A stretch of 64,000 bases of DNA from Owenia fusiformis (Eukaryota; Annelida; Polychaeta; Sabellida; Oweniidae). Shown one piece after another: positions 75 to 35,327 of the stretch. Made by a program: the position numbers and the translations under genes. The notes beneath the pieces were generated by a model. It searched no databases, was not told the DNA's origin, and saw only the letters and a program-made list of their open reading frames with translations. Each line of letters begins with the position of its first letter. Position 1 is the first letter of the stretch. The stretch is from the NCBI GenBank assembly GCA_903813345.2, contig CAIIXF020000010.1, forward strand, positions 12,159,181-12,223,180, given 5' to 3'.

Positions 75-3000
75 TTGATGGAGAATGGGGCTGGTGGGGC
101 ACATGGGGTAGCTGCTCAGCCTCCTGCCTAGGGGGCACTCAGATACGCACACGTATGTGTGATAGTCCTGCTACTGCCAACGGAGGAATCCCCTGTGCAG
201 GAGACAGTATTGAGGATCAGAGCTGCAACGACTTCCCTTGCCCAGGTGAACTCTTGTAATAATTCCATCACGTGATTCACTTTAAAGACGCAAAACTATT
301 CTACATACTTTGTATAAATAGTTGTACAAAAAGAATATACATACTCACATAAAAGCACATCACGTAATAATATTTCTTTTAGCAAGCTTTCTTTCCCTCG
401 TTTTGATTTCTCCAAAATAAGATATAACAAAACCAAAGACAACTGCTAAGTCTTCATCATTTTCTTACACCTTTAGCTATTGACGGGGAATGGGGACCAT
501 GGGCTTTTATAAGCAAATGTACTAAGACATGTGACAGTGGATTCCGAAAGAGGGAAAGATTCTGTGACAACCCGCCTCCCCAGAACCACGGTCTCATTTG
601 TCCAGGTGGACTTGAGGAGGACAGGACGAGAGCCGTTGAAGTTGTTGCATGTAATTTTAGACCATGTCCAGGTACAAAGAACAAAAAATCAATCCCGATT
701 ATTAAACGTTTCTTTCAACTCTTGAACTTTAAAGATAAGGATTTTGAATGATGTAATGTACTTAATTTATGGTCGGTTTTCTCGACTATTTCAATCAAAA
801 ATTTGATTAATACTGAAAATGGTATGACTATTTACATATACAATATGCATTTCACAAAATCTTTCATTATTACCTAACTTGTAGTCCATGGTAAATGGTC
901 CAGCTGGACAGCATTTAGTGAATGCTCACTAACTTGTGGGATGGGTCTACGTACCAGAACAAGAGTCTGTGATGAAATAGTGCCGGCTCATGACGGGTAT
1001 GACTGCTTTGGATCAAGTATAGATACTGTGCCATGTGAATTAAATAAATGTGCAGGTAATGTCTATATTTCACTCGAATGAATTTCAAACAGCTATATTT
1101 TTTAATTCAGGTTTAGAGCCTAATCGTTTTCATTAACTCATCTAACATCGTCTTACATCAAGCAATGTGATTAATTTAGAAACATTTTACATAGTTCCAC
1201 ATAGGATTTCAGCAATTTTCACTTTGATAATTTATGAATGTTATTTAAAATAGAACTTTACACTGACAATGGGTGGTTCCTTGATTAGACAATGCGACTT
1301 GTATTTTAGCTAGGATAAAGAGAAAGCATTCATCCTAGATTTCGTTAATGATGATGGTGATGAGACTTTTTCAAAATGGGGGCAAGACTATTTTAGATTA
1401 TTTGATAGCATTGTAAAACGCTTTTTAACCCAAGTATACAAGCCCAGAGATTTATGTCTTTGATTATTTTAGTATATGCAACATTGTTTTAAAGAAATTA
1501 TACATGACTTTGTATTCTATTCATATTGTATAGTTGTATGTAGCCGCACTGGATAATAATCCATGTGCCACTGTTATAAAAGTGTTGGCAAATAAAAAAA
1601 AAATAATAATAATACTCAAAAAGCGATAATATCTATTTTAATACATTCTCAGTATTTTTAAACATGTGATATTTATATTTATATTAACGATACACACTCC
1701 CCTCTGGCAACCGGAAGTTCCACTTTGGATCACGTGTCAAAGCCTATTTATGTTTCGCGAGTTAAAAAAACAATCACATCAATCAAAATTGAGATTCAAG
1801 CATTGCTTTAACATGTCATCCAATAAAGTCTCCCGGTTGCCAAACTTATGGAGGGGAGGTGGGCGTACAATATGTCCGTTCATGAAATAAAATAAATGGA
1901 CACATTTTTTATTTGTAGTGAATGGTGGATGGTCAGAATGGTCAGATTTCAGCGAGTGTTCAGTGACGTGCAATGGCGGTAAAAAGGCTCGGACTCGAAC
2001 ATGTTCCAACCCTGTCCCCCAATACAATGGAACTGAATGCGATGGGGAGAATATGGAAGAAGTGCAATGCAATACAATCAGTTGCCCAGGTGCATGTAAA
2101 ACGCGCTAGAAAACAGTTTACATATTGTCGATCTCCTTTTTGGACATATGTTTACATAGTCGTTAAAGAAACCAAACACAATTTTGAATAATTTGATTTT
2201 AGTCGTGAATGGTAACTGGGGACCATGGCAGGAATGGACCAAGTGCTCCACTACATGTGGAAAAGGCGCTCAGAGTAGAATCAGATCATGCGACAATCCC
2301 TCTCCTGCTAATGGAGGTTCATTCTGTCCTAAGTTGAACACTCAATCAAGGCCCTGCACGCTGGAAGATTGTGTAGTTGGTGAGTTTTCCTTAATGATAG
2401 TCTGGCTACAAGCCTCTGTGACTCCCCCCTCTACTTGACTAAACACCTTCTCACACAGAGGGCTTGGAGTTAGACTAAAAACCAGGAATAGTGCATGGCC
2501 GACATCCTCGTTAACACGAGTTACTTACGTTACATTCGTTACTTACGAATTCAAATAAATTTTTGTTTTGTCATATTTTCGGATATTGTCATGGCCTTCA
2601 GGATTTTTGTGACGGTGTATGGAGGTTGTCGTTCGGAGTTAGGCGTCTGTAACAAATGGCAGCATTTTGCATGTTAATGCCTCTCGTTCATTCTGCTTTG
2701 CATTCTTAGATGAACCAGATGTGGATGGAGGCTGGACTGAATGGCCAAAGTTCACAGATTGTTCTCAGACCTGTGGTCCAGGCCAGAAAATTCGAGTGCG
2801 CATGTGTAGCAATCCACCTACTTCCGGCAATGGGAAACCATGTGACAAATTCTCAAATTCACAATCTCAAGTCATGCTCTGCAATGAAGGAGGTTGTCCA
2901 GGTAAAGATTCGTATCAAAATTGCGAGTGAATAGCATTAACATTTGTTAGGCAAACAGAATACAAAGTATACATGATAATAAACAATTAAAAACTGATAA

Positions 3001-3530
3001 AGGTCATTCAGCACTGAATAAACATAAGAAATACACTTCTATTTTTACCCCAACACATTGGTAAATCACTATCCAGAAATCCTTGTTATAATGCGCATAA
3101 AAATGTACCCTTGTTCTGGTAGTTTCCTTTTGGAATTTTCTTATAGTTGATGGCCAATGGTCCGAATGGTCTACAGGCGAGTGCAGCGTGAGCTGTGGGT
3201 TAGGGGAACAATCTCGGGTGCGTAGGTGTGACAATCCACCTCCGGAGTTTAACGGAGCGAAGTGTCTTGGCGCAAGTGCAATTTCAAACATTGAAACTGA
3301 AAAGATTAAGTGTTACAAAGGGACTTGCCCGGACGGATCTGGTGCAATATATGTAAACGACTATCCTGATTTGGTCGACACTTCTACCGAACTGTTCACT
3401 ACAACTACAGATATTATTGCAATTGGCTCCACACTTGCAATGGTGAATAAGACTACAACAACTGGACCTATAGGTGGCAATATGGCAATTAATGGCAGCG
3501 GAGAATGGGATGGAGGCACTATGCCCAATG
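75..3530 (+). CDS. TSP1-repeat array of the adhesion GPCR: seven consecutive exons
   Basis: Seven exons each encode one complete thrombospondin type-1 repeat. They show the W-x-x-W-x-x-C-S-x-T/S-C-G core, an R-x-R-x-C strand and terminal cysteines, for example 'NGGWSEWSDFSECSVTCNGG' in exon 1919-2089. Every exon starts and ends in phase 1 (lengths 171, 195, 171, 171, 177, 192, 384 nt), the classic pattern for exon shuffling or tandem exon duplication. The seventh exon (3147-3530) is longer: its repeat is followed by about 70 residues rich in Thr, Ser and Gly, probably a glycosylated stalk. TSP1 domains bind matrix glycoproteins, glycosaminoglycans or phospholipids and are often C-mannosylated on the Trp ladder. 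More repeats may lie upstream, because the first exon also begins in phase 1 after an intron. Confidence 0.93.
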
Positions 3531-6500
3531 GTAAGCTTATCATACATGAGGTCATTATTCACACAATACAAAACAGATTTTTATGATGATTTTGATTTTT
3601 TATACATTTTTATACAATTACGTACAACATGATAAAGATAATCGTGAAAAGTATCGTTTAAAAATCTATCAAATAATAGATATAGGGCTACATTCAAGGT
3701 GATTACAACGTAATGTGTAGAGTACATCAATTTTGTAAACATTCATCTATTTTGTACTAATATTTATCAATTGAATCATAAGTTTTTCTTTCAGTCATTG
3801 AAAAGTGTCCTCTATTTGTGACTAACAGAACTATATGGTTGCCAACAGAGATATGGGAAGAGTCGGAACAGAATTGCTTGGAGGGTTTTATTGGTAAGAC
3901 ATTTGAGAGTTTAAGCTAGAGATATTTTCACAGCGCAACCGTGAACGCAAAGCCAATGAATTAATACAGCAATGTATAAAGCGCGCATACAAAAGAAGCG
4001 CCTACTTAGGCTAGTCTACTTCAGATACCCGATCAGCTTCAGAGTTGTGTTTAGAACGGGAGATTTTCAATTTCACGTTGGTTGCAACGGGAAACATTAT
4101 ACTCATGTCATTTGAGTACAATGCTGGCAATTTTGATTTCGATGCATAGTATAATGCTTTCTGAAGAAAATGATGTATGTCTAAATATCTTACGAAACGA
4201 GCATGTTTAAAATATGTATCATAGAAAACCAGCTGTATAACTATCAATGGCATAGTACACGATGATGTGTAGTCTAAGTAACGGACTAAGCAAACACTGT
4301 GACCGAACGATTGTTTTATGTGAGAAAACTACATGCATTTGTATAGGGCGATTTATACGTACAGGTACTCAGTCTTACACCACGCGTCTTATAAACTACA
4401 CTTGCAGATTGTAGAAGTTCAGGTGCTTGTTTTTAGCATTAGATTCCACCTCAAATCGATGATGATCATCAGAAGTGGTCATATCAATACCATACCTGTC
4501 AAGTAAAAAATAAATAAAAATCGGGGTGAAAATCGGAATTTTTCCTGAAAAAACGGGATTTCTAGAAAGAAATCTGGAGAAAAATCGGGGTTACAATAAC
4601 TATATCAATTCCAAAAATCGGGAGAAAATCGGGATATTAAAATAACGTTTTTAAAAAAATTGGAATGAAAATCTGAATTTTTCTGAAAAATCGGGATTTC
4701 TAGAAAGAAATCTGGAGAAAAATCGGGGGTACAAAAACTATATCAACAATTCCAAAAAATCTGGAGAAAATCGGGATTACTAAAAATAAATCAGAAGAAA
4801 ATCGGGATTACTAAAAAAATCACGAAAATCGGGGTTTACATAGGTAATTTGATAAATACGTTTTCGAGTCGCTTTTTTTACTATGTTTGTTTATTAATAT
4901 ACATGTTTACATGAGATATCATCAACATTAAATCACATCATAATTAATAAATGTGAACACACCCTCACAACTTGAAGTTATGCAATAGAGTAGTTTCTAA
5001 AAAGCTTTAAAATCTCCCTAAATCTAGTTTTTTCGTGAGATTTTTAGAGATTTACACTTATTACCTCTAATGACTTACTTTTCTTTATTTTTGATAGCAT
5101 ATTTGAATTTAGTGACAAGTTTTCTCCCAAAATAAGTTTGATGTACACAGTTATGTCATTTAAATCATTTTCCATGACATTTAAAAAGAACTTGGGCCAA
5201 ATCTCCATTGGTGCAATGCTAAGATTCATTAAAACCTTGGCTTATTCGTATGACAACCAACATTTTTATGTTTAATCACAATATGTTCATTAACAGTATC
5301 ATCCGACAGTATGCCATTCGAGTTTCAGACAGATTCAACCAACACTTTTTGACAAATCATGAAATTAAGTGACTATTGTAAGTTTCTAGCATCGAACTGA
5401 ATGGAGGCGTGTCCCAAGAAAATCAAAGACAAACAAGGGTGACATATTATATTCAGCTATTTAGAAACTATACAATTTAAACTAGCTTTAATCATGGCCA
5501 TGGTTTTCCGTTTCACTTGGACCTCACAGCACATTACTTGCAATAGTTAAATATCAGAAATAATTATGTAATCCACATCTAGTCCTCACATAATCGATTA
5601 TCTTTCTGTTTTTGGTGTTGCTCACCGTTTAGTATAAAAGGCACGATCCCAGAATAATACTCAATGGTGTATAGGTTGAGGTCAGTGTGTAATGAAGGGA
5701 TTTGAATAAACTGGAATATACCGAACTCCCATAAATATACTGATCTAGTGGACTCGTCTGGAGTCGCCATTTTGTATTTATACGGTAAGGTATACAAGAG
5801 GAGGGAACGCCGGCGATTTGAATAAACTGGAATATACCGAACTCCCATAAATATACTGATCTAGTGGACTCGTCTGGAGTCGCCATTTTGTATTTATACG
5901 GGAAGGTATGCAAGAGGAGTGAACGCCCCACCCCAGAGCTTGGAGATAACAGACATCATTTCTTCTCTTGCTTACCACCTTCGTTTGTTCGAATTTTCAC
6001 CGGCTAGTTTCCAAATATTACGCTTCGATGAGATGTTTTAATTGATGTAGGCATATTCCGTACAACTTTCTTTATCTTGATATGAAATGATAAGCTATGA
6101 TATTGGTTAATACGCCAGAAATGAAAATAATATTATTCGAAGCGTATTTCGAACATTTTGAGGCCGCCATATTTGTTTGTCGATTTTGACCAATCAGAGA
6201 CGTAGGTCATCTCAGTGCAGGTTTACATTATAAGCATACGTCATCTTTGAACTCTGTGTTTAATCCCCCTGGAGGTATACGCAGCTCTTTAAAAGAATAG
6301 GCTACATATACTTCTTTGAGAATAAAATATTTTCACGTTGGTGTTTCTTGGTATGTCCGTCCATTGACTAATTTGTTGCAATTAAGGCAAATCATACAAC
6401 TTATAAACATCTTGTCTGTAGCGGCCACCACAGTTGATCGATGGGTCCCCAGTGCAAGGCATCGAACAGCTAGACTGATCAGATGCCAATCCATGTCTCC

Positions 6501-9500
6501 CATAGGTCGATCCACAGAAGCACTGACTTCCGTATTGAACACCAAAATACATGTAACCTAAACAATAAAGATATTACCGAATTTCAAATACAACTCAGAG
6601 CAATTAGCTTTCAGAAAAAAATTATATAACGTCGTCTAATTTTTTTTACAGATGGTTTGATTTTGTTTTATGTTTAGTCATGTTCACCATGCGAATATGA
6701 CTCAAATGAAAGGTTGGCTTAGTTTTTTATGGCATACTGTTGCTTATTTCATTCAATCATTTTAAATGCTTTACTTCACATCTCCTTTTCAATGTAAGGA
6801 TGCCTCAGCATCTACGTAAGGTGACAACAGATCAACTTCGTAATTAAACTCAAACTTACTACCGCTGGCTGCTCGGCATGTAGCTGCGCAGTTGTCAGGG
6901 TGATTATTTGATGTGGATACATTTCCTTCAAATGGAAGATCTCGATCTCTCCGTACATCCACATAACAACCTATGCGCGTTTGGCTACCACAACCAGATG
7001 CTGAAATAGAAATGTAGTGTACATTACCAGATAATATATCATGGTCAACTTAACAGGACTGACAAGGAGAAGCATCTATATGTTTGATCGAAGCGATCCT
7101 GATGTACCTGAGATCAAACAAAAACTCCACATTACGACATACAGAATTTCTACTTTATTGAATGTATACTAAAAGTTTAATATTCCACCTTGTGGTATCT
7201 TTTTCCAATTACTATATTCAGTTTTGCAAAAGTTGCTATATGCAGTATTCTCAGTAAATCAATAAAATTATCATAGATTTTGTGGTCTATAGTTCTGTAA
7301 TGTTTAATTTTGACCATTGCACTACAAATGGTACATTTCTGCTTCTAGCGGGTAAGATGTAAAATGCAAAACGATATTTGATTTGAAAAACTTAATTAAA
7401 TTGAACTAATGATAAGTAAGGTGTAACAAAACCAAAAAAAAGATTTTTACCTGTCATCGAATGTGCAACTCTCCATGTCCCATTACCTCGAGTTACGTTA
7501 CAGTCAACTGAATCAAGTACTTCGCATATTCTACTTTCCTCGTTAAAGTTGATCACTTTGCAGGTTACATGCAACAAACATTTCATTATACACTGATCGA
7601 TTTGATCAACACCGGAATAAGCATGAAGTGGTTCTCTGTTCATGTAAATGCCCATGGGCCATAACTTGAAAACCACTGATGCTGAGCAGTGTAATGAAAT
7701 AGTATAAAACAGGATACAATACCAATGTGCCCGCATAATAATATTTCAAACTTCTAAAGCATCTAACAATTCATATTCATAAAAATGCTTTCACCCAACG
7801 ATTTGAGTACAAAATACAAAATAAAGAGGATATGACGAACAGTATCTGTTTTTCGATTTTCTCATAACCTGTCCTTTGAAGTCGTCATAACCTATTGATG
7901 AATAAAGAGCTTTTAAATTACCAATATTGGGTTGAAATTGTGTACAACCGGAGATCAGTAAACGTCATAACGATAAAAGCTGTCCTGTTAATGTCCTGGG
8001 TCCCTCTCCCAATAAAATAACAAAACAAGGCGTGTGCGGTTGGTTAGATGGCATAAGCTTGTCTGTTAGACTGGTCATCGCCGGGAGGGGTGTGAATGTA
8101 GACACCGCGATCCCCGGGGTTACGATGGTCAGTCTAAGACGCTGTGTTTTAATAAAACCCATTGACGCAACTCGACAGCCCCCAAAACCGCCAAACGTCC
8201 TGTTTCTATTTAATTGAATGGACCACAAATATCGAATTCTTATTTGAATAAATACAGGAAGTAATATCGAAGGAGTGAAGATGACTCTCGATCAAATATT
8301 TTAACCCATTTTTAAAGTATGCTTCACTTTGCTTTTTGTAATGCAATGTACAGAGATACAATGTACTTTGTACATTGTTGTAGGTACCATTAAAAGGCGT
8401 TGTTTGCCAGGTGGAGTTTGGGGAAACTTGGATATATCTAACTGCAAATCACCCCAAATGGTTCAACTTGAAGCTCAGGTAAATGATACTAAGCTCGCTT
8501 AGACATAGGCTAAAGACGCATTCTTGATTTAAGGGTATTTCATTTTTTTCTAAATTGAGGAATAAATGAAGACCTTTGAATAAAGAATGACAAAAACTCC
8601 ACCCCAAGTAAAACTAAGAATGAGTTGTAGAGGCAGAAATAACAGATTATGTTTGAGTATGTCCTAAGTTGCCCCTAATTAAACTGAAAGATAAACTTGC
8701 CTCAAATGTTGTCTTTTAGATTGCGTTTTTGGGGAGAGATGACCAAATAAGGGCTAGTGTCTTGGATGATTTCAAAACCCTCTGTGACACAAGAAACATT
8801 TTCAGTATAGAAGAAGTTCTACAATGCAAGATCATATTTAATATGTTGGTTAACCTAGATTTTCTCGGATTAGAAGAAGTTGCAACTCCGGCGAAAAAAG
8901 AATTTGTACTAGTAAGGATTACTGCATCATTCACTTACAATGTGAACAACCCTATTTTAGTTTAGATTCTCATATTTTATTCACGATTAAGACATGGACC
9001 ATTGATCAATAATAAAAAGTTGAGGTTGATGCAATCTTTGATTTAAACAATTCATTTTAGTATAGTTTTACAGGGTGGCAAAAGCGTAAAAATCTAAATT
9101 AAATAAAATTTTCGTGAATTGCTCAACACAGGAGAAAAGTGAATCAAACCACTGAATCTTGGAGGCAGAATTCACACAGGATTCATATGCACATATGAAT
9201 CCTGCGTCCAGGATTGATGCCATCGAAATTTTTATCGAATCATAATTTATGTCTCACTGTATGTACAACTTTCAAATATTTCAGACTTACATTAAGGAAT
9301 CGTCCATTATTTCATTGTAGGATGTCCTGCGAGGCTTGAATTCCATGCTCGACCCGGACCACAAGCAACTGTGGATAGAAATAGTAAAGGTACGTGTAGA
9401 CATAATTACTAGATATACATGTAGTGTTGGTTGTGTAACAAATGGACTAAAATACGAAAACGTGTACAGTATTTCACATTTATGTTATGTCTCTTTGTAA

Positions 9501-12500
9501 ATGTAAATACATTAAAAAGCCCAATGTAAATCTATAGAAATTTTCCGTTTACGAAAATTAACAATAATAAACATTCAAGACTTACTGACTCAAGTGTTGA
9601 AATTAAAATAAGGACAAAAATCAGGAGATGCATTCACACGCGTCCCTTATCAACAGGACTTGAACTCGCGACTTTCTGTGATAATCGGAATGAATTAACA
9701 TAGGCATGTCATAACTCTAATTAACGACAGGAGGAACAGTACGAGAATTCGAACAGTCTAGCAGATATCCTCGAGACCATGGAGAGACTGGGTTCCCAAG
9801 TTGTCTCACTCCTTAAAAAAGATGAAAATGAACTAGAACTTTGTAAAGGTCAACGTTATATTAGTAAGTAAATTTTGATGTTGTTAACCTTTGAAACAAA
9901 CTATAACCTGATCGAGGTGAATATATAATCTCGAACTTCCTAAAAATCAACAAGTCATTATGTTAATAAGTACCTTTTGATCTTGTTAAGTGAAAACAGA
10001 CCATTCAGCAAACCTGTCTCATTTTTCAATCAAGATCAAGATGGACGCAACTCAATTTTATAAGTATTATAAGAGCTCTCTCCATGTTAATTATATGAGC
10101 TATTATAGATTTTTGCGTGCAACTTACACCAAGATGTCCGACAACAAATGTCCAATACCCTAAAGAATCCCAAACTGCGATAGTTTACAACAAGCACCTT
10201 CGAGGGGATTTAGCCTATCAAGATCCCCGTATTTCCCATGGAATAATACCCAAAGAGATACTTCAGCACTACCGATGCCCAAAAAGTAGGTGGACATTAA
10301 CATTGTAAGTTTACAAAAACTTACACATCCATCAACAAAAAGCACTATAATAATTCTCTTAAAATTTATATATTTAGAATATATTCCATTTGAAAAGCGT
10401 CGGCATTTGTTATCAGTCTCACGCAAATCTCGAATAATTAAGATATATATGAAAGTATTTTATTCTGTTCGCAGGTGCAACAGACCTGTATAGAGATATG
10501 AGGGGACTCATCACTATCTCGTACACAAGCCTCGATGAGATCATGCCCAATGAAAATAAAGAAGCCATATCAGATAAACCAATCACAAACAGTGATACAG
10601 GGTATTAGATAAGCATAAATTTTAGATTCATACTTTTGATAGGGCATACAAATTCAGCTCAAAAGAAACAAGAAAAATGAAAATACCGGGTTATATAAAT
10701 TTTCAAACAAACAAACATATGAAAATATAATAATTATACATATTACTTGGTAACATTGGTGTGTAATCTCTTCCAGAGCTGCTCCTAGGGCTGTTAACTC
10801 GGAGGTGTTCACAATAAAGTTGGACCCACCAGCGTCAGTTCCTTTAGAAAAACCAGTGACCATTAAACTTTATCAGTCGAAGGTACTATTTAAGTTTTTT
10901 GTTATTGAGATATATCTTTTAGAGTTCATGATTTTTTATTGGTGATAGTTGTAATTTAACAATGTCCATGGGTATTTCAAAGAATAATACATTAGTAAAA
11001 GTGTTATGTAACATGCGATATACATACACATACCACTTGTTAGTAATGACATGGTGTCACTAGAAATTCCATGATGATAATTTTATTTTATTTTCAGACA
11101 TCAGTGGATCCTAAATGTGTTTACATTGATACGACAAGTAAATCCAAGTGAGTTAATTTTAGTTTATAGTTCAAAACATATGAATTTATATTATTCCAAC
11201 AGGATCAAAATACCAAATATAAAACGCCACTCCTGATACTAAACGGTGGAGTAGCAGGGCGGTGTAATTTTCCACGAAAACGAAACAGAGCTATTCTAGT
11301 AAAGATAAGTTTTATAGAATTTAATATTAAAATTGAATATATTGCAGTGATTTTTGTTTCAGTCTGTATCAAAGTGATGGATGTCGAATTAAAGTTAGCA
11401 CAAATGACTACATTATCTGTGAGTGTAACCACTTGACAAGTTTCACAGTACTCATGGATACAACAAGGGTAATGTATATATTATAATATTGTTATGTTAT
11501 ATATTATAATGTAATATATTATATTAAATTATATCATATCATATTTGTATTAAATTTTATTTTATATTATGTTTTTTATTATATCATATTATATTACTAT
11601 AGTATAGTGTATTATAATATATCACCTGAGATGATCACTATACCTCATATACCATATTTGGTATGACCAATATCCGTTTTATTTTTAGGAGCCATCGGAC
11701 AGAGTACCATATCACAACCCTGCTGCTATTATTGGGGGATTAATTCAACTTGTATCCATAATTATAGCAATTGTTATGTACTGTATTCTAAGGTTAGTCA
11801 TGTGTATTATAAAATATGTTCTTAGTTAATCAAACTGTCGACATACTATTAAATTTTGAATCTAAGAAATGCAACTTGGACTGGATAGGCTTAGGACGGC
11901 AATACTTGTGTCTTTGTACGTTTTTATGTTGCATCTTTGCTCTTTGCTTGTGATGCTGTTCTCTACAATTTTCTTTTCTTATATTCGTGAATGCAAATAA
12001 CAGCTACTGGGTTGATTGTAATTTGAAGGCGAACTCATTTAGATATCAATAGAACCTGCCGTGCATACTGGTAGCTACAAGCTATCACGTCAAACATGAA
12101 CGTTGACCAAAATTGTTACTTTTTGTAACCATGTCCAATAACCTACCATTTTTGGCTGTAGAATGTTCTGGGAAGACAAGTATTTTGCATTGATGAACAT
12201 CTATGGTGCGGCATTTGTTGCTACATTAACATATATGGCAGGATGGACAGCTGTTAGTGATCAGGTACAGTATTTCGTACCATTCCTCTTTCTGTACTCT
12301 CATTGTAAGCAATGACACAACATTCAGATTGAAACCTTTAATTTTCAGTTTTAACCAGACTTGCCTAGTTAGGCACAAAATACTGTTCTTTAGAAATTAT
12401 ATGATACTTGTATATAACGGTCAAGCCAAGTAACTTAGTCAACATTCGATATTCGTATGTCCATCAATCTTAACTAAGAATGGTGCCACAATTGAAGTAA

Positions 12501-15500
12501 ACCTCTGTTTAATAATTTTCAATAAACCTATCAGCAAACGTGTAAATGATAAATTTGACGTTCTGTTACATATTGGTGAAGCAGTCTTTGGGATATGGCC
12601 TAAATTTCTGAATTTCCACTATGTCCCTGTATACCCCTACTTAAAAACATGTATGTTATTTGTCATTTTTCATTATGAATCAAACATAAATGTATTTTTT
12701 CTTGTTTACATGAAGAATGAACTTTTTGTTTTCAAATATTGAAAGATGGTACTGCATTTATTTTTTCATGATATGGAGGAAACAAATGCGTGTCAATTTA
12801 CACTGTAATATCCCACACACTTATATTTCAAGGGTAGTTTTGAAGAATAATCAAGAAAATCCATGTTTTCAAATGAATTCATCCTTGTCAAAGAACGTAA
12901 ATGAGGATATGCGGTTTAAAAAACTAACAACATGTTTTAAGTTCTTACAATTCTTGTTTAAAACAAACATTTCGAAAGTTGTGATTTCGAATGTAATATC
13001 CAACTCAATGAAATTTGTTGATATTTGTGAATTATTTCTTTCGGAATGCACATTGCTGGATCACAGAACCTTGCCTTGTTCGAGATGCACAAAAAGGGTA
13101 TTGCTAATACTTGACGTCGTTCGGATATTCGGATATGATTGACATTTTCGTTAATCTCCAACCACTGTAACTTCCAACTTAATTTTTGAAAGCCAAATAT
13201 GATAGTCATGAATCGATATTTAAGTCACACATGGATGCATACATCATGTGTCTACATTAACTGTCGAATACATGCCGACTTTCATTTATTTGAATATACA
13301 CAGTTAACTCAAATCATCAATTCTCGAAACGGTTTATTATATAACCTGACCTGTGTTTAATGTTTCATTTTAATTTATAATTATGGTATCGGATTTGAGT
13401 ATGATTTTAGTCGAGGCTTAAACAAAGCAATAAAACTGCGTGAAACCTTTTGTGAAAATTCGAACGATTTTTCAAGAATCCTCCTTCAAAGTGTTACCAC
13501 AGTGCTCCCCGGGAGAGGAAATTTCGTCTTATGTAATCAAAATAATAGCGGGTGGTTTGAATTTTTGTTTGAGTTAAGAGCTTAGCATCTATAAATTTGA
13601 AAATGTGTCGCCTCATTGAGAGGTACATGCAGATTTTGGCGATCTATCTTTATAAAAGGCTAAATTCTGTGCAAAAACAGGAGTTGACACGCTTACATTT
13701 GGAATTGAAATTTCCTACATAATTGTCGACTCATGTTTAAAAGTCACGAAAACAAGGTTGAACACAAAATAATAACCTAGTTACTGTCTATTTAGCATGG
13801 GATCACTGAGGGAAATATTCTTAATGACTTAAATCGTTAACAGTTAAGTTGTATTCCAAGAAACTTATCAATTTAGAAATGCAAAATGTTTAATTTTGTT
13901 TTTCAATTGTAAAAATGGCACCTGTAGAGAACAACGTTTTACAAAATTATTTAAAACGGAGATATTAACTGATGTAACATTCTTTGCCATGTGTCAGGGA
14001 GTAAATAAGAAGAATTTGCATTTGATTCTATATCTTGTTCCCAAAGGAGTTTGTTAAGGAGCGGTATATCTTAACGTACTTTTATCATCCCGAACTCAAA
14101 TATTTCGAATCCTTATTTCGACAACGCTTTGTTGAGAATGGATTCAAGATGTACTCAAAATTAATACGTTAAAAGATGTATTATCATCTTAATAACCACC
14201 TCAAAAATTATTTTGGAAATCAAAGATGGACGATTTTTGAGATTTTTATTTTCGAATGTTGACTTAGTTACTTGGCTTGACTGATAAGTGGAGTGAGGTC
14301 TTCATCTTTGATGTGTTTTTTTGTTTCAGATTGGCTGTATATTTGTAGCAGCGTTGATGCAATATTTATTCTTGGTGACAATCGTGTGGACACTTTGTTT
14401 AATTGTTATTTTATACAAACAGGTATTTTCTAAATATTGATACTCTTTTGTGAAACAAAATTCAAGATTAAAATGTACAGTTTATAACCTCATTCTCTCT
14501 CATAACTAAATAGTATCGTATAACCATTTTGTAAAGATTTTGTTAAATGAAGTCAACCTGCATCCAAGAACTATCATCAACCCTTCTATCCAAAACGCTT
14601 GTTTTATAGGCTTTTGAGGAATGCAAACCCATCGGTCGGAGAAAGAGAATCGTTTATGCAATATTTTGTTGGGGTATTCCACTGTTTGTATCAGCAGTCT
14701 CAGTTGGTATAGGGTTCGAGCAGTACATGGACATGCAGAATTTGGTGTGAGTTAACACCATATTTGATACAGTCTACATGGAAATATATTTCATATATCA
14801 TATTATATTATATCCTATTATATTATATTATGTTATATGATATTATATCATGACATTTATATAATATAACATAATATTATATGATATTATATTATAGTAT
14901 CATATTGTATTGTAATTAAGCCACCTAAAATAAGATGCTGATTTCATTTTCATGTTGTATCATCATCATAGTCCTGAGTAATTTTGGATAAGAGATTATC
15001 CAATAAGGATTATCACAGAGGTCTTATCGTATATAATGCCGTATCTTCTAAGGGACAATGCATAATGATGCAATATATGGCAAGGGGTCTAAAATCAGTT
15101 TTATGTAATCTGACCATTACATTGTAGATGCTGGCTGACCCATACCGAAATGGTCAGTCTAGGATGGTTTATTCCACTGGGTGTGTTTACATTGGTAAGT
15201 GTTTCATATTTATAGTTCTATAGTTCTAACAATTAAAATATATATTCTTATAGGTATCACACAATATAATATTTCCACAACTGAACATCAAGTGTGACAT
15301 TAAAACCTCTTTGCTAAAATAGCTGAGTTTTTCACAATTCCAAAAATTGTAGTAGTAATTTTATATCATTCGCTGTCACAAAACAATGCAATGAAATTCA
15401 ATGGCTTGTTTCTTTTGAGTTTATATTTCATATCCGATTTAAAATGGATATTTCCATTTCCAGGTGTGTGTAATAGTTTGGGCAAAGGGCTTTAGTTATA

Positions 15501-19847: not shown

Positions 19848-22800
19848 TCAAGGCGCTTGGGCGTGTCCATTTTGTTCAGACCCTAAAGGGGGTAATGGTA
19901 AATCCTCAGTGCTAGATACAGGTACATATTGAGTCTGTCCACTTTCGAATAAGTGTGGCCGATGTTTCTTTTCCCATTTATTAAGAGTTCTTACAGTGAA
20001 GCCTACTACTCCTGCGACTGATATCAGAATGCCAGATGAGTAAAATGAGATGGCATAACTTTGGTTCTCTTCGTCGTACAAAACCCCTGAAAGAAAGAAA
20101 AGATGGATGTACGGACCTTGTGACAATTTTTTACATGTTCAACGGAGTTTTCTTAATAAAACTGCTTTCCATATGCATTCCAGATGTAGTTATTCAGTCA
20201 ATTCCAACAAATATACAATGGAACGACTTGTTTTTCTGTAGAGAATCTACTAGTTAACCACTCCTTCCAAATATGGAATCAACTTCCTTCTATCCTTTAA
20301 CAACACAGAATGGGATATCGTATGACTATCCTCATCCATAGGTATTTGCGGTATGCAATGTGTCATTGCTTGAGAAGAACAGACGACAGATCAGATGTTC
20401 TGAACTTTTGGCCAATCAAATTGCAATATAACAAAGTGCTATCTGCTTGCATTCGAGAATGTAACCGCCGGTTGACGATTTAACCTGCAATCTAATGGCC
20501 AATATATTTAGATATGAATGGAATAGTGGCAGGTACTATTCATATTTAAATTTATTGGCCATAAGATAGTAGGTTAAACCGCCAGGCGTCAGTTGAATTC
20601 GCGGCTGCTACCCTAAGCCTATGGATGAGTCCAATGCACGATTTTGACCATTGATTTCTACATATTTTAGCGGTTGCACTGACTCCTAATATTTGTATTT
20701 TCTCGTGAATGGTATCACTAATGATTCAGTCTTTATCATATTTAAATTCTTATATGTACCTGCTAATGGTGTTCCGACGACTGAGGCTATTCCTTGGAAT
20801 AACAGCAGTATACCAAAAGATTTTGTCAACATAGCTAGCCCCAACAGATCCGTTAATATTATGGTTCTAAGAGATATGAAACATGCTGAAAACAGAAAAA
20901 CAACAATTCTTGATGGAGCTGTCAGACTTAGACCATGTGATCCCACCGTTTGCCACCGTGTGGATACTTTGGAGCAGACGGCGGGACACTGTACGGAAAC
21001 ACAGTGGGCAAAACAAATAGTCTTACAACAAGACATCCCCCATCACACCGAATACAAAAATTGATGTCAAAAGTAATGCACAAAATTAGCCACACTGTGG
21101 CGAATTGTGAACCGACGTGGCTAATGTGACAACTACTTTAATTAAACTCATGGATATTGTGATACATCGCGGTGTACAATTTGAACAGTTTTCTATATGA
21201 TCCACTCGTTGGCTGTCGGTAGTCGACAGGGTGAATAAATTGGCCAGTCTACCTATGGACCTTTAACATGCATGGATATTGGTGTCTCACTAGTGTCACC
21301 CATATCATGTCGTAATGCGTCTTTCTTTGTCCGCGTTAAGTAACCCTTTAACTTACCAATGCAAAGTCCATAGATGACACACACCAACACGAACATCCAA
21401 TACTGGGTACAATGTGGGATGGCTATACACACTGCCCCGGCGACCACCAGTGCGAAGTTGTTGATGACTAAACAATCCGCCCAGGTTCGATCAGAGAGCC
21501 AACCAGCTACAACCCTTCCCGCTGTATTGGATATACCTAAGATAAAAAATATGCGGTTATTCGGTGGTTGGTTTAGGATTGTTTTAATCTCCGTAGCATT
21601 GATTTGATGCCCCACATATCAGCCTATATTCCCAGTACTGTAGGCTGTTAGTTGGTTGTTTTTGCCATTTATCCAATGGCATGGTTTAGAGAATGAAAGT
21701 AAGTTAACTGGTAAATATCAACATTTCATTCATAGAAACTATATTATTCTTTCTTGGTAAATAATTAATGAGAAGTTCCCCATTGGTAAAAGCAACCATA
21801 AAACACCAAGACCACACGAGAATAAAACCCCCAATATAGAAAGAATATGGATCCATTTATCTATCTGAATCTTAAATGTTTTGGCCACTGCCACTTGCTA
21901 AAAACAAAACTGGATGTGATTCCACGAGGATTGAATCAAAATCTACTCCACTACAAATACTGCATTTTGAAATAACAAGCAAGATATCAGAACAGAAAAA
22001 CATTTACAAATCACGTATCAAGAGGATTTTCAAAATAATTGTTTAATATAATTTTTATACAACCCATGTTTTTATTGTTTACTAACAAAACAGTCCAAAT
22101 GAAAGATATCCATATTGCAGTTAAAGATTCTACTAGGTACGTGTAATCCTTCGTGCAGCTATATATCTCAAAGAGAAAGAATGATTTCTAGATTGGTAAG
22201 CCCAGTAAGCACTGGCGGATGGCGGGGGGGGGGGGATTTCAAAGTTTGGGCTCACTTTTGGGTTTTAGGGGCCCAAACTTTTTTTTAACTCTGACCTGAA
22301 ATTTGCCCCCCCCCCCCCTCCTTGTTGGTTCCCATATCCGCCCCTGGTAAGTACCAAGTTGATAGAACAACCAGAAAACATGAAAATTCAACATGACAAG
22401 GATACCATATTAAAAACCTAACAAACCAGTAGAATCCTTGGAATCTATCCTATACTTTTAAAAAGCCGCTCATGTAATTGTAAAACATCCAAAATTGTTA
22501 TTGGCACATATGGGGAACGATTATTGAGGACATACGCTAAATTAGACTGACTCCCTCACACAAAATGAAACTGCTGCCCGTTAATTTAGTTTTTTTAACC
22601 CTAGAAGCCCTGTTAAGTTTTTTCCCATAACTCCTTATTGGCACCTGGTATGGTCTTCAGTAGCTGAAGCTACATATATATCAATGATGTTTCTGAAAAA
22701 ATCAGCAATATTGTACATAGGGTAATTGATTTAATATGATGTAATCATCAGCTCCAATAGACAAAATATTACACCAAATTGTAGATAATTGAATCAAGTT

Positions 22801-25800
22801 TTTGTGGGAAAAGTTTGAACATCCTAGCTCTACTCATAAAATTTTTACAAGGAGGTGCCCTCTTGACCCCCCCCCCTAGGTGTTCGAGTGACTTTTTTAC
22901 TTTAGGGTTTATTGGGTTAAATAAATCAATTAAGCATTTTCTAAAAGTGATTTACCATCTACAAGTGTTAGCACACATTATCTATTGTCATTTTCATAAT
23001 GCCATGAAACTTACCTATTATTGAAAGTAGGAATGCAGCCTCGTTTGGATCCACAAACTGTATAGCTTGCATATATAGGTACACAAAGGGGGTAAAAAAT
23101 CCTACAAAAACAAGATAAATAGTTTTGATTGTTCATACAAAAAATGGGAGATCAGCTGTAGAAACTAAAGGGAACTGAATATATGAGCTGATACTTATAA
23201 TGTTGTAGTTTATCATTTGATGATTCAAGAGTCTTGTTTTTAAGTAAATGTCCCTCATACAACATGGTCAACTTGAAACCTTAAGAAGGACAACTATCTC
23301 AAGAAGGACAGCTATCTTGAGAGGGGCAACTATCTAGCGATAATAGGGAGGTTAACCTATACGTTTTAAGAAATTGTGCATGAACGTTTAATATTATGAC
23401 CCCCCCCACCACAGGGGTAACTATCCCACTCTCAATTTGATTTTCCTGGGATCTGATCCAAGCATATTTCTTGTACTTGTATACTCGATCGGGCAAGTGA
23501 ATACTAAAATGGGGAGAATTGACCCGAATGAGGAGCATAATTCTAGACGTTCACGTATTCGTTCTCTTTAAAACGCGTTGATTAACCTCCCTAATGTCGA
23601 GAGCATCATATTTATAAAATAGAAAAACAAACCTAGCATAGCAGCAACACTCATGAAGCATATGACATCGAAAGTCAGACACTTCAAGATGGAGAAATCA
23701 AACATATCTTTCAATACATTCAGGATTGGACCAAGTCTGCCTTCTTCTTTCTGTACATTGACACTCGTTGTGCTTTTAATATATGATCTTATATCCGGCT
23801 GAGACTGGAACTCTGGAATGGATCTCATACTGCCTGTATAGAATATGTCCTGCCGATACATTGGCCTCGATACTTCCTTCTTCTTTCTTTCGTACTCCTC
23901 TTCTTCTGGTGTCTGTATTGGCTTTTTTAAAACTCGTTTTCTCAAGTCCTCAGCTGAGAAACTGACCTTGGTTGCCCCTTTCAAGGCCCTTACTCTATCC
24001 AAGGCTTTATTGTGGATATTTAGTAAATTAGGAGTAGAATTAATAATAGTTGTTTCCTTCTGTGTTTCTGATTTGTCATTATGTTCATGGATTGCATTGT
24101 TATTTTCTAAACGCACAGTTGTTTTAGGTTTAAGTTTTTCTTCTTCAATGTCCATCAGTTTATTATCTGGAAAAAGTTTCGCTTTTTTAGCGTCTACAAC
24201 TTTATTGTCTTTGGTAATAACTACATTATCCATTGATCCACTTGAAATGGTTCTTTGGCGTTTTTTATCTTCAATAATTTTGTACATGATTGAACCCTTT
24301 CTGGGCTTGAGGGGCCCGATTTCGATGTCCTCACTCTCTTTACGTTTTGGTGCCTTGCTGAGGGATTCCAACGGTCTGAATACAGCTCCACAGACAATGC
24401 AATTCAAGATCAACCCTGCGAGAATCCATGTTGCACCTTTCCAACCGAATGCTGCAATCAGACGCGGTGCGAATGCTCCAAACACAAATGTGCCTATTCC
24501 CGATCCACAGACGGCAATACCTGTTGCAAATGCTCGCTTTCCCTCGAACCAGAAGTTCACGATTACGATCGAGGGAAGATAAATTAAACCAAATCCGATA
24601 CCTGAAAATATAACGAAAGTTTAAACACAGTGAATGGGACACAATTTACATTTTATCTAATTCAACTATTATAGAGTGACCCCAAAATAGGACTAAATAA
24701 CGATTTTGTGTATTTTCATTTTCTTTCACTCAATTTTGCTCATTTCAGCCATCTCATTGTTTTATCCTATTTACATACATTTTCGAATGACTCTGTCAAA
24801 AAGATGGGCAATTTGGCCTCAGAGCATTCCTTGATGGAACAGATTTAAGTCATGATAGAGTACGGGCTTCTTTTTTAATTGTCTCTCGTCATGTATTACA
24901 ATGCCCTGAGTATGTGAATTAGATATCATTGTACTTTTGAATTGTGATAAGTGTTTTTAAATCGTGGAGACATAAGATAACATTTGTAAGTATTGTACGT
25001 AAGTAATTATAAATTGTTTGTGATACCAAAGATTTGTTACAAAAACGATTACAGTCATAAACATTTTTGTCTGAATCTTTACCTCCACGAGTACAATTTT
25101 TGTTATAGTGCTAAAATTTTTTGATTTACCTCCCATTATGCCATACGTGATAATTAGAACATCCAAACTTGGTGAGAACGTGGATAGGATGAATGAAAGA
25201 CATGCAATGACGGCGCCAACAATCGTTACGGCTCGACATCCCACTTTGTTGGCCAGGGCACTGACGAACGGTCCTGCAAAAAGATTCAATAACATTCATG
25301 TCTTTTTGTAGTTGGTATCAGACCAATCACAACTCTCAGTGTAAATACTTGTAAATTATTGTTTCCCGGGAATAATACCTTATTCCAGATGGTCCTCATT
25401 TTCCGTCTTATCCGTTTACACAATTTAACATATATAAGGGTTATGTACTGGGAGGTTTTGGATATGGGGTTCATCCAGAGGGAGATATGCATATCTACCT
25501 GAGGGACCGTAGGGACCGAAGGTAGATGTGCATATCTCACGAGGGATGAACCCAATATCCAAACCGACCGTATATAACTGCTTTATCCTATACCAAGTAG
25601 AGTTTTCAGGGGCATATGGCCATTTCAATAGTTTAAGGTGTTAAAATAAACAAATCATTCATGTGCAAAGTCATTTTATTGCATTTCCACTACTTACCAG
25701 AAGCGGGAAGATATGTACCGAAGCGAGAAGATCTGCACCGAAGCAGGAGATATGGAGGTTCTGGATAGGGAAACCTTAAAATCAGGATACGGGATATATC

Positions 25801-27079
25801 TTACCAACTTATCTCCCTAAAACTCTACTTGGCATAGGATAAATTTCTGTACATACTGATCTGAATGAAATTTTGTTAATAATAGAACTAAAAAATCATT
25901 ATGTTACATCTATTGGATCGCAGCAAATTCAAAGGCGTATATTGTTGATACCTGCAGACATGCACTTGTTTGTATGAGTACGACCATGAACCAATGCCGT
26001 GCAAAAGTCAAAATAAAAATCAAAGACAATGCTTAGTGTCAGTCTAAGCTGGTAAACATGATATACTGTAGACAGTTTACATTGGGTTAATTTGGCACTA
26101 GTCATTTAGCGTTTTCAAAATTCACTGAATATTGGCAAAGGTTGGTATGGCCGATTTTTGTGAAAATGCCCGAAAGCGCTTTACTAGCACACGTAAACTG
26201 GTTATCGACAGAGGTTTAAATTGGCTATTTTGTGATGACTTCCAAAACCACCAAAAAGAAACAGTACCGCTTTATATTAGTTTACAGTACATGTTTCTAT
26301 TATGATCAGTTTGACTTAATATTTGTTCTTTGTAAAAGGTACAAGATAACAACTACATAAACCACAATGGCTCTTCAGCTTGTTCATGTGGTCAATCAGC
26401 TGTTCAAAGAGCAAGTGAACTTGCATGTACACCTGAGATTATCGGTTCACAAACAAATGTACGATAACCAAAGGAAACGATTGGATGACATAACCTTTTT
26501 ACTCCGCGCTGGAATGTTTTTCTCTCAAATCACAACCCAGCGAATTTTTCAAAATCGACTAAGGTCAATACACCAAAAACTACTAGATACACCTTTATTA
26601 ATCTCAAACTCATTCTTTACTTAAAATTTAGACTCATTTCAGGCGAGTTAGATCGTGGTTTGAAATATTAAGTGGTTAATTTTTCTTCTGATAGGTTGTG
26701 CTCGTTTACAAGTGGTTTCTTGACATGTCATTTTCTTTACTTTCTTGACATCACAATTGTTTTTCCTTCAAAATTCAAGCAAATAATATTTTTCTTATAT
26801 TTAAAAATACAATCCCATAATCCTCTTTATGTAGTGTCACTCACCTGACATCAAATACATCCCAGGCACCAAGGAACCAACAAATGCCGTCTTAGATACG
26901 GATTCACCGAACTCCTTTAAGAATTCGACAAAAAAGACCGAATAGCAGAAGCAGAAACCATCCACCAGCATGTTGCATATAAATGATCCAAAGACAATGA
27001 CCCATCCCCAACCGCCATCCGGAGGCAGAGGGGGTGAAGGCTCATCTTCTTCATCATCCACTCGCCGCTGACTTCCCAT
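19848..27079 (-). CDS. MCT-A: monocarboxylate-transporter-like (SLC16) protein, 659 aa, 7 coding exons
   Basis: Coding exons on the - strand: 26845-27079 (ATG at 27079), 25130-25273, 23633-24601, 23015-23101, 21357-21536, 20760-20885, 19848-20086 (TGA). They total 1,980 nt and every junction is phase 1. The product has the MCT signature P-P-D-G-G-W-G-W (about residues 19-26) at TM1 and the TM5 signature F-W-F-E-G-K-R-A-F-A-T-G. It has twelve predicted helices and a hydrophilic loop of about 225 residues, rich in Lys and Glu, between TM6 and TM7. Family role: transport of monocarboxylates or related substrates across the plasma membrane. The lysine of the MCT1 'F-F-K-E' motif is Val here (F-F-V-E). 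In TM8, N-T-A-G-R replaces the D-x3-R pair, so classical proton-lactate coupling is doubtful. The coding exon extends upstream to an acceptor at 27128, so a 5'UTR exon lies further upstream. The frame is open above the ATG, leaving the start slightly uncertain. Confidence 0.92.
20331..20629. mobile_element. MITE-like element in the last MCT-A intron
   Basis: Terminal inverted repeats CTCATCCATAGG (20331-20342) and CCTATGGATGAG (20618-20629). Internal sequence also folds back: 'AACCTGCAATCTAATGGCCA' pairs imperfectly with the stretch ending in GTAGGTT, and a G-C-rich pair lies around ACCGCCGG and CCGCCAGG. About 300 bp with no coding potential. Confidence 0.7.
22210..22346. mobile_element. hAT-like MITE with poly-G/poly-C core, in an MCT-A intron
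   Basis: Ends CACTGGCGGAT and ATCCGCCCCTG form an inverted repeat around a poly-G tract (from 22224) and a poly-C tract (from 22306). CAGGGGCGGAT-type ends are common in hAT non-autonomous elements. GTAAG flanks both sides, shorter than the usual 8-bp duplication. Confidence 0.5.
23344..23593. mobile_element. MITE with TAGGGAGGTTAA ends, copy 1 (MCT-A intron)
   Basis: Ends TAGGGAGGTTAA and TTAACCTCCCTA; 250 bp. It sits 39 bp downstream of the donor site of the long MCT-A exon. A diverged relative with the same ends is at 41287-41554. Confidence 0.7.
25430..25850. repeat. Two adjoining foldback elements in an MCT-A intron
   Basis: Inner foldback: GGTTTTGGATATGGGGTTCA (from 25454) is complemented by TGAACCCAATATCCAAACC (ending near 25564). 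Outer or second foldback: TTATCCTATACCAAGTAGAG (about 25582) is complemented by CTCTACTTGGCATAGGATAA (about 25823). Between them is a short tandem phrase, ACCGAAGC plus GAAGAT. Non-coding. Confidence 0.7.
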
Positions 27080-27127
27080 TGTTCTTGTATTCGACTCCTG
27101 ATTCTCTTCCAGTAGCTCTATTGTCGC

Positions 27128-28789
27128 CTAAAATGTAAAACCACATTCAAAGTATGTTTTCTTATTTCAATAACTTTTAAATTCCTTAAAATCAAATCCC
27201 AAGACCTTTTTCTAAGTGTAAATGTTATCTAACATTTTTTCTGAGTCGATTTAGCACCGAAGCCCATTCTTTTTTACCAGAAAACCTTTCAATTTCATGA
27301 TTTCTCGATTAAAGAGCCTTGGATGTGTTTCCGCGTATCAAATATTTTAGTATTACACAAAAAAATATTTTACCGTGAAAGACTTGAATTTACATTCAAA
27401 ATAATTACCATTTAATCTTTTTAAACATTTTCTCCACAAACTTACTAGTAGTGCCAATCAGCTGACGGAGCAGGCGTGAGCGATTTAGTGATATTCCTAT
27501 TTGATAAGTAATCATGAATAATTTTGTACTTTACACTTACTTAGGTTAAATGTCGATTAAATTCATATTTACCGTCATCATTATAATCAAGGTACAGATG
27601 CACCGACAGATAAATCGGATTGTGCAACAACGAAATACCGTATTAGTTGAAACATGGCAGCATTTGAAGTTAATTGATTGCCGGTAAGGACAAAACCATT
27701 AAGATCAATTTTAAGAAAATTAAGCAACCACAAACTTACCACCACAAACAATCAAAAACCGCATTTACATTGAAAATTGATTGTAACATATTACATATCT
27801 GACTTACCATTAAGATACAATTTGTATTAACCAATTGCTAACCTTGGCCCCTTTTGCTACTTGACATAGAGGTTCGCAAGAGAAGAATACATCAGGCCAT
27901 TATTATACCAAGTGGACTTTAGAACAGGGGGTGTGTTGCAAATGATAGACAATCATTGGACAAAATAGCACTAATTTATCTCTTTCAGATCATATTCTTT
28001 GATTTGATCGGTGATCAAATGACCAGAGCACACGTGACTCCCAGTATTCTTGATAGGATAACCAATTAAACTATTTATGGAGTTTAAACATTGAGCCTAT
28101 ATCTACTGCTTCCTTTTTTCTTTTAAGTAAGTTCCTTATCAGTTCTACGATAAAACGATTCCACTTTCAAGGTCTGAAGTAGAAGTACAATTGTATCAAA
28201 CAATATTCACCAACACAGTCCACGGTGATGACAATTAAAGATCAAAAATTAATATCTCAAAGACTTTAATCCTATTATTCTTTATCTCCATATGTTACAA
28301 AATCACATAATTCATGAATATAATCCAAGGCTATGACTATAAGAGATCAAAATTAATATCCCTATAATATATTTTAATCCTCCTCTTCTCTACTCCATAT
28401 TTCACGTACCATGCCCTCATATGGCTCCAATTCAAATCGTAACATTAAAATAAGTGTTTTGATAATATTTGGCACGAATAGACAATTATCTACCTTAGAT
28501 TATATACTACATATATAGAGGATGTCATTTGATAAACTAAGAACTAAGTTATGCCCAAGAATGTTCCATATATAGACAAAGCACATGTTCTGCCTCGATT
28601 TATTCATGAAAGGTGACATGACATCCATAGTTTTTAAAAACAAGGACATGTTCATCAGTTGACAACAGTTATTATTGCCTTTTATCAGACCACTGAGGTG
28701 AAATTTGATGTTTATATCAGCGATAGTTAAACGGGGACCTTTTTTTAATCCTAGTCAATGTCTTTGTATTCCAGGCATACATACTTGTA
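27128..28789. other. Upstream region of MCT-A, no gene recognised
   Basis: Because the first coding exon of MCT-A opens at a splice acceptor (27128-27129), its promoter and at least one non-coding exon should lie here or further upstream. I could not locate them. No repeat with clear ends was seen. Confidence 0.45.
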
Positions 28790-28915
28790 GTCCACAGAGC
28801 AGAATATTTATATAGATAGGGACCCAAAACCGACCCTTGTGTTACACCACATGAATAGCTTTTCTTTACTTCAAATTTATAATTGTAACGGAAGCCACAA
28901 GAATCCTTCTTAAAA
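28790..28915 (-). pseudogene. Non-LTR reverse transcriptase fragment
   Basis: On the - strand a frame of about 40 codons reads ...S-Y-S-C-G-V-T-Q-G-S-V-L-G-P-Y-L-Y..., the conserved 'G-V-P-Q-G-S-V-L-G-P' block that precedes the catalytic Y-A-D-D motif in jockey/CR1-type retrotransposons. The Y-A-D-D block and the rest of the polymerase are not recognisable nearby, so this is a decayed fragment. Confidence 0.6.
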
Positions 28916-29299
28916 ACAGTAAAACTTCACTAAGCAAATACTTTCAACTGATAAAATCAATATTCAAAATACAAATGTAATCCGGCCGAAATCAAGAGTA
29001 GAAAGACTTTTAGGCTGTTACTAAATGATCGAAGACGAGCTATTGAATTTCTTGGAAAGTAAGGTCTTTAAAGGCATCGGTTTTACAATCTAAGTTAATC
29101 AAAATTATTTTACGTTACTCCTAAAGATAAACTGCAGTCATCTTTAGTAGTCAAAAAACTGGGAAATACTTTTTCATCAGATTCGAGATTATACTCATCT
29201 TTTACACTTTCAAAAATGAAACAAATCTGTCAGACAGACTACAATAAATATAAAGTAACCAACATACGTACATTTAAGGATGACATACATTTTCTTCAA

Positions 29300-29455
29300 T
29301 TTACACTGCGTCAAATGTGAAATTCCAAGCAATTTCTAGACGTGCAAAGATAATCTAGGAACTCCGCGTATCTAGAGATTCCAAGACGTGTCAAGAGGTG
29401 CAAAGACCTCGCGTGTAAAGAGCGTGTCAAGAGTTTTGATATCTCTTTGCACAGC
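29300..29455. repeat. Dispersed repeat with CGTGTCAAGAGG phrases, copy 1
   Basis: Contains TTTCTAGACGTGCAAAG, GACGTGTCAAGAGGTGCAAA and GCGTGTAAAGAGCGTGTCAA. Related to 34008-34155 (inverted) and to a short fragment at 31008-31065. No open frame. Confidence 0.65.
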
Positions 29456-29904
29456 CTTATCAAAACAAACAGTATAATTAGACTGGCCACATGTTGTTAT
29501 GCCCTATAGTCGCGCTTAATTATACTTTACTAGGATTGGAATATAACAATCATTTTAATTTCGTGTTTATAATAATTTGTGTTTTTTAAATCATTATCAA
29601 AATAAAATTAATTTAAAAGTATGCGTGTGCGTGTAAGTATAGGCAATAGCTTAGTCGGAATGAGTAGATGTGTGCAGATGGAGATCGCCTATGTATTTTG
29701 CTAAATCTGACATTTTTACAGGATCATGTTAAAGATCAAATGAAAACACGAAATGTGTTTTTCTTAGGTTTATCTACCCTGATTTCGAGTGATTTTAACT
29801 TGGACGCATATTCCTAGATATTAAAACAGTTTGAATAATTAACAAAGTCCACTTTGAACCGTGTCAATCAAATTATCAATTGTCAAATATGTAGATAGCA
29901 CATA

Positions 29905-30101
29905 CAGGCCCGAATACAGGGGGGATAGATTGGTTCTAGCGACCCCCCCCCCTCCGTGACCAAAATTGCATTTTTTACCCCATACTGAGCACCTTTTAAA
30001 TTATTTTGCTCATTTTTGAACTAACATTGCCAAAAGTAAACTCCCCCTGGAATTTCTTAAAAACGTAACCCACCCCTTGGCAAATCCTGGCTATGGGTCT
30101 G
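29905..30101. mobile_element. Short hAT-like/CAGGCCC-ended element with poly-C tract
   Basis: Begins CAGGCCCGAATACAGGGGGG and ends GGCAAATCCTGGCTATGGGTCTG-like, an imperfect inverted repeat of the widespread CAGGGCCGTAGCCAGG type. A similar end (GCTGGCTACGGCCCTG) occurs at 31517-31532. Confidence 0.4.
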
Positions 30102-34697: not shown

Positions 34698-34705
34698 TTT
34701 GTATA

Positions 34706-35325: not shown

Positions 35326-35327
35326 TA

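Follow-up and report, generated by a model that had tools for sequence, protein, structure and literature searches.

Does a 64,000-nucleotide (nt) stretch of the annelid Owenia fusiformis (GenBank assembly GCA_903813345.2, contig CAIIXF020000010.1, positions 12,159,181 to 12,223,180; hereafter the window) hold a functional gene inside an intron of another gene, and, if so, what would it encode, how would it have arrived there, and does its position matter? The gene in question, which we call the guest, has three exons on the minus strand and is predicted to encode a short secreted protein with a PAN and a WSC domain; the host, on the plus strand, is predicted to encode an adhesion G-protein-coupled receptor (GPCR). 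We favor the explanation that the guest arose by duplication, is independently regulated and encodes a small secreted protein, and that it lies antisense within a long intron of the adhesion GPCR gene; we give this a probability of about 0.82.

Structure of the nested gene

Joined in phase 1 at both introns, the three guest exons (Table 1) yield 199 codons and a stop, confirming the exon borders, phases and open frame that an earlier note had read from the letters of the window. An in-frame stop is found 9 nt before the initiating Met, and a further stop closes the frame. Random placement on the minus strand at positions 28000-41000 of the window, repeated 20,000 times, gave an open frame over 285 nt in no case, over 138 nt in 4.7% of cases and over 174 nt in 1.9%. 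The earlier note had also held that exons 2 and 3 become visible only after splicing, a statement that has to be withdrawn: the unspliced sequence already shows exon 2 in an open frame at 7049-6789 and exon 3 in one at 6573-6382, and with 47.7 bits exon 3 exceeds the WSC Pfam cut-off by itself.

An alternative donor for intron 2, GTAAGT at 6859, would add one codon and give a 200-residue protein. It was rejected for the gene model on its lower WSC score (67.3 vs. 69.9 bits) and on the fit of the 6862 donor to a paralogue on contig C3, described below. Minor use of the 6859 donor is nevertheless possible, because it is a closer match to the textbook donor than the 6862 site.

Domains of the predicted protein

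Profile searches support both domains that the earlier note had called by reading. The Pfam WSC profile (PF01822) matches residues 105-186 at 69.9 bits against a cut-off of 27.8 (E 2.2e-19, profile positions 2-82 of 82), and this segment carries eight cysteines (residues 107, 133, 137, 154, 156, 172, 176 and 184). PAN_1 (PF00024) matches residues 41-77 at 25.0 bits against a cut-off of 21.4 (E 1.7e-5), over part of the profile (positions 19-55 of 76). No other domain exceeded its own cut-off in the Pfam scan of the guest, and libraries of defense-system and prokaryote families gave no match. Toxin_3, at 14.1 bits and below its cut-off of 21.5, was taken as a chance hit. The only solved chains to match the WSC domain at E up to 1 were 9n3u (1.8e-6) and 7pz2 (3.8e-5), the latter being the Wsc1 domain structure (PMC9024836; here and below, papers are cited from excerpts).

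Inspection of the N-terminus by eye revealed a hydrophobic, signal-peptide-like stretch that follows the first Met of the frame and is approximately 19 residues long, and no transmembrane helix was seen by eye beyond it. Residues 20-199 contain 14 cysteines.

Paralogues and selective constraint

A search of the genome (498,259,871 bases in 525 contigs, E up to 0.01) with the guest protein returned 71 matches, its own three exons included. The paralogue on contig C3 (25,489,015-25,491,818, plus strand) has three exons in order, with 58, 57 and 64% identity to guest exons 1, 2 and 3, and shares their borders, the intron phases and the place of the initiating Met. A TAA flagged in its exon-2 stretch falls in the intron just before that exon. 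Comparison of window positions 5900-8383 with 9.9-kb loci from C3 and C12 at the DNA level gave three matches, all to C3 (7691-7497, 7006-6856 and 6562-6376); likeness between the guest and the C3 copy is confined to the exons, and the introns have no similarity. Contig C12 contains two tandem genes with the same three-exon layout, 65% identical to each other and 34-36% identical to the guest and the C3 copy. In an alignment read by eye, the eight WSC cysteine columns are Cys in all four genes; five cysteines of the PAN exon are likewise common to them, and the first Met stands at the same place in the guest and its three relatives. The guest, the C3 copy and the C12 pair thus form one family, which comprises at least these four short PAN-WSC genes. 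A retrocopy origin of the guest was rejected, both introns being kept at homologous places in four of four members.

The family also bears on whether the 199-residue protein is complete, or whether the guest exons are a fragment of a bigger gene on the minus strand that encodes additional domains. As judged by eye, the genome does contain at least one longer gene in which PAN, WSC and lectin-like exons occur together. However, the guest frame is bounded by stops on both sides, the C3 copy ends at the same place as the guest, the C12 genes end two and fifteen residues later, and all four start at the first Met of the frame. We therefore consider an incomplete gene very unlikely.

Directly upstream of the C3 paralogue, on the same strand, a gene with a C-type-lectin-like exon and a long Thr/Ser-rich repeat exon whose end is membrane-like was recognized by eye (1668-3191 of the extracted locus).

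Divergence between the guest and the C3 copy was estimated with NG86 (non-synonymous divergence, dN, 0.287; synonymous divergence, dS, 1.18; dN/dS 0.24, with 0.14-0.39 over 300 bootstraps) and with YN00 (dN 0.288, dS 1.385). The C12 pair gave a dN/dS of 0.23 (bootstraps 0.12-0.36). With dS near or above 1, these ratios are rough. Identity to the two C12 genes is 34.0 and 33.8% for the guest and 34.7 and 36.0% for the C3 copy; the two are about equally distant from the C12 pair, and relaxed constraint on the guest is therefore not indicated. These comparisons show average constraint since the guest and the C3 copy split.

The same numbers bear on the alternative of a recently dead or dying copy, intact by chance and unexpressed. 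The guest is a gene model drawn from genomic sequence, and on the minus strand its stop is followed by the first AATAAA at a distance of 1,293 nt, with the nearest ATTAAA at 118 nt; both points would suit such a copy. Nevertheless, the frame and splice sites are intact despite a dS of about 1.2 to the C3 copy, the dN/dS is low up to its upper bootstrap bound, the guest is no further from the C12 pair than the C3 copy to any marked degree, and all eight WSC cysteines are kept. A pseudogene was accordingly judged unlikely on the dN/dS and the intact structure, and we regard a dying copy as unlikely too.

PAN and WSC domains in the genome

The supposition in the earlier note that PAN and WSC in one short protein is uncommon did not fit this genome, in which the domains are together in four family members and lie close to each other at two further loci. 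Profile searches found 61 WSC matches, and 150 of 436 PAN candidates were scored. When 65 WSC matches (61 from profiles and 4 from the protein search) were paired with 157 PAN matches (150 and 7), at least six loci had PAN within 5 kb 5′ of WSC (the window, C3, two on C12, C10:12.34 Mb and C4:4.37 Mb), a lower bound because 150 of the 436 PAN candidates were scored. Not entered in the WSC list for pairing were C10:4,205,816, several short C11 rows and protein-search rows for places already listed. The two loci outside the family have other layouts, read by eye.

On the contig of the window, approximately 118 kb past the window end, C10:12,341,500-12,349,000 has PAN and WSC matches together with apparent C-type-lectin and discoidin-like exons (by eye). 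WSC matches also cluster at C2:1,446,599-1,485,743 and C11:542,312-546,365, the latter comprising six 105-base matches that all fall on the same part of the guest query; the clusters suggest that WSC genes, or a WSC repeat, expanded locally. Among the matches listed in the literature on WSC/PAN proteins, the excerpts mention no short PAN-WSC secreted protein, which does not mean that none has been published.

The host gene and its long intron

The joined host frame scores 223.3 bits for TSP_1 over seven stretches. Further downstream, 7tm_2 reaches 33.7 bits against a cut-off of 20.6 (profile positions 8-146 of 250) on a hand-joined composite of exons with an X spacer, from which a candidate exon at 12162-12264 was omitted for phase misfit. 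With a GPS (autoproteolysis) motif followed by a secretin-family seven-transmembrane domain, the host is an adhesion GPCR gene by its predicted domains. We take its layout, TSP1 repeats plus a hormone-receptor domain (HRM), to be ADGRB/BAI-like, a label given by layout only.

The intron that holds the guest divides the putative HRM domain between two exons. Their 65-residue join scores 25.5 bits for HRM against a cut-off of 26.2, and the closest PDB chain to this query is ADGRL3 (adhesion GPCR L3, E 0.0047). We read the host as continuous across 3894-8383 because the joined frame is open throughout, across this intron, and because the HRM score rises from 15.4 bits to 25.5 on joining. The whole guest coding sequence (6382-7736, minus strand) falls inside this plus-strand intron, antisense to the host as the earlier note had placed it. 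The gap to the 3′ host exon is 647 nt, and that to the 5′ host exon approximately 2.5 kb. Eight other host introns that were measured span 113-863 nt, compared with 4490 nt for this one.

A search of the genome with a 129-residue host query (E up to 1) found only its own three exons, a missing match not being proof of absence. By eye, no host-like gene was seen among open frames of at least 75 residues in 29.9 kb around each paralogous locus, an inspection that involved no profile search of the flanks and does not rule on other host genes. As no second host fragment was found, nesting in this host is seemingly not a family property. Joint duplication of host and guest was set aside as unsupported, with no host-like sequence found at the paralogues. 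Moreover, the extracellular modules predicted for both host and guest, to which the earlier note had drawn attention, are weak evidence of a link between them, both because such modules are abundant and because of this negative search at the paralogues.

Whether the nesting matters to the host is a separate question. Antisense transcription of the guest might disturb host splicing or polyadenylation and give, for example, a short TSP1-only host form ending in the HRM intron. Nested genes have been reported to cause host intron retention and cryptic polyadenylation (PMC3192792), the intron is long relative to the eight others, and read-through past the host donor at 3893 would run for only seven more codons before a stop, which is weak evidence in the same direction. 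Against this, the proposal too comes from genomic sequence; the 19 AATAAA/ATTAAA motifs on the plus strand of the intron are uninformative, the intron being A+T-rich; host-like sequence was not found near the paralogues, within the limits of the search given above; and mammalian nested pairs have the same expression divergence as unnested genes, with greater divergence in Drosophila (PMC8467205). We consider interference of this kind quite unlikely. A stronger version, in which antisense transcription of the guest would act as a developmental switch, ending the host in intron 3894-8383 so that a soluble TSP1-only fragment replaces the receptor while the guest serves as a secreted partner for the same matrix, seems extremely improbable to us.

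The intron also contains a tandem pair of a 116-nt dispersed repeat (Table 1). Across C1-C12 and one small contig, the repeat matches 41 places at 70-100% identity, the two in the window among them; it is likely a short interspersed element, because many matches end near base 85-98 of the query.

Table 1 Features of the host and guest genes, in window coordinates
Feature	Position	Strand	Remarks
Host TSP1 exons (seven)	75-245, 477-671, 885-1055, 1919-2089, 2203-2379, 2719-2901 (or start 2710), 3147-3530	+	Phase 1; overall span 75-3530
Host exon, first half of HRM	3795-3893	+	Alone scores nothing
Host intron holding the guest	3894-8383	+	4490 nt; phase 1; GT..AG
Tandem 116-nt dispersed repeat	5699-5927		Two copies, 97% identical; in host intron, 3′ of guest
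Guest exon 3	6382-6557	-	176 nt, stop included; second half of WSC domain
Guest intron 2	6558-6862	-	305 nt; phase 1; GT..AG
Guest exon 2	6863-7000	-	138 nt; linker and first half of WSC domain
Guest intron 1	7001-7450	-	450 nt; phase 1; GT..AG
Guest exon 1	7451-7736	-	286 nt; open frame; codons 1-95 plus the first base of codon 96; initiating Met, signal-like start of the protein and PAN domain
Host exon, second half of HRM	8384-8478	+	Alone 15.4 bits
Host GPS motif exon	11363-11468	+	GPS 36.7 bits
Host transmembrane exons, first membrane segments	11689-14750 (approximate span)	+	7tm_2

Beside the host, two apparent major facilitator superfamily (MFS) transporter genes are located on the minus strand (window 19848-27127 and 42007-49097). 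MFS_1 scores 54.1 and 44.7 bits on their long exons, and two other exons tried gave no match; by eye the genes are monocarboxylate-transporter-like. G-rich tandem repeats of 10 and 20 nt occupy window positions 44714-45116, within the segment of highest G+C in the window (0.426, 44001-46000). In the genome as a whole, 38 Forkhead matches fall on nine of the contigs C1-C12 (C1, C3, C4, C5, C6, C8, C9, C10 and C11), with close groups on C8 and C10. This agrees with what is described for O. fusiformis, namely 12 chromosomes, 35 Fox genes spread over nine of them and tandem foxQ2 on two (PMC9539403), but falls short of proof, since the numbers of the nine contigs are not those of the nine chromosomes.

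Discussion

The gene models, profile scores and alignments show a three-exon gene with predicted PAN and WSC domains, average constraint, a family of at least four members and a position in intron 3894-8383 of the host. On the explanation we favor, the guest would be transcribed from its own promoter, the simplest place for which is the 647-nt gap that separates its ATG from the following host exon. The protein would be secreted and, because the WSC domain itself has the PAN/apple fold, may work as a tandem of two PAN-fold modules. In the yeast WSC domain structure, two of the four disulfides are common to PAN domains, and domains of the WSC/PAN fold bind proteins or carbohydrates (PMC9024836). 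The guest protein may likewise have extracellular ligands, either glycans or other proteins, with mucus, the tube and body-fluid defense as possible settings. It would have reached the host intron by duplication at the DNA level, since its introns are kept, and need have no link with the host gene.

Besides the reliance on genomic data already mentioned, several points weigh against this explanation. The PAN_1 match is barely above the cut-off in the guest and below it in the three relatives (16.2 bits for the C3 copy, 16.6 and 14.7 for the C12 pair), and a single-sequence structure model made for the PAN exon by itself was of too low quality to be of use (mean predicted local distance difference test score, pLDDT, 52). 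The joined HRM domain falls slightly short of its cut-off, and a scan of the 548-residue host join at E up to 0.01 did not list HRM. The dN/dS is rough at a dS above 1, and a pairwise ratio cannot separate the two lineages. Suggestions about the ligand, tissue and function of the guest derive from domain families only. Lastly, internal nested genes are often duplication-born but typically short and intronless (PMC8467205), whereas the guest has two introns.

Nested genes account for approximately 6% of genes in Drosophila melanogaster and approximately 0.5% in human by one count (PMC3786989), and for 4.4% of human and 4.3% of mouse genes by another (PMC8467205). In the latter, 220 of 296 simple nested pairs in human and 193 of 248 in mouse are on opposite strands. 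Such nesting is common in animals, and the finding is therefore mostly ordinary: the guest is a further case of known kinds, a predicted secreted WSC/PAN protein and an opposite-strand nested gene. What it adds is a well-supported nested gene, possibly missed by annotation, and a small family of short, predicted secreted PAN-WSC proteins with a common three-exon structure. If the nest proves old and common to related species, it would offer a clean test case for opposite-strand nesting versus receptor splicing.

Comparison with known systems

Drosophila 2mit inside timeless2 is, like the guest, a protein-coding gene wholly within a host intron and on the opposite strand (PMC3786989, PMC8467205). 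It differs from opposite-strand intronic genes of this kind in having retained two introns and in being one of several family copies. The host resembles adhesion GPCRs with TSP1 repeats and a hormone-receptor domain in its seven TSP1 exons, near-cut-off HRM, GPS and 7tm_2. The guest is like PAN/apple proteins in its PAN_1 score and in the five PAN-exon cysteines common to its family, and departs from them in that its match covers only the stated part of the profile and three of the four family members score below the cut-off. It shares the eight-cysteine WSC domain with yeast Wsc1, human Kremen1, annelid glycerotoxin and the Serendipita Wsc3 lectin; in contrast to these, it is 199 residues long and has one PAN followed by one WSC domain, no other Pfam domain over its cut-off and, by eye, no transmembrane helix. 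In glycerotoxin, an annelid protein of approximately 140 kDa with two WSC domains plus EGF and CCP, the WSC domains are putative carbohydrate binders (PMC5336659), and beyond WSC nothing ties the guest to it.

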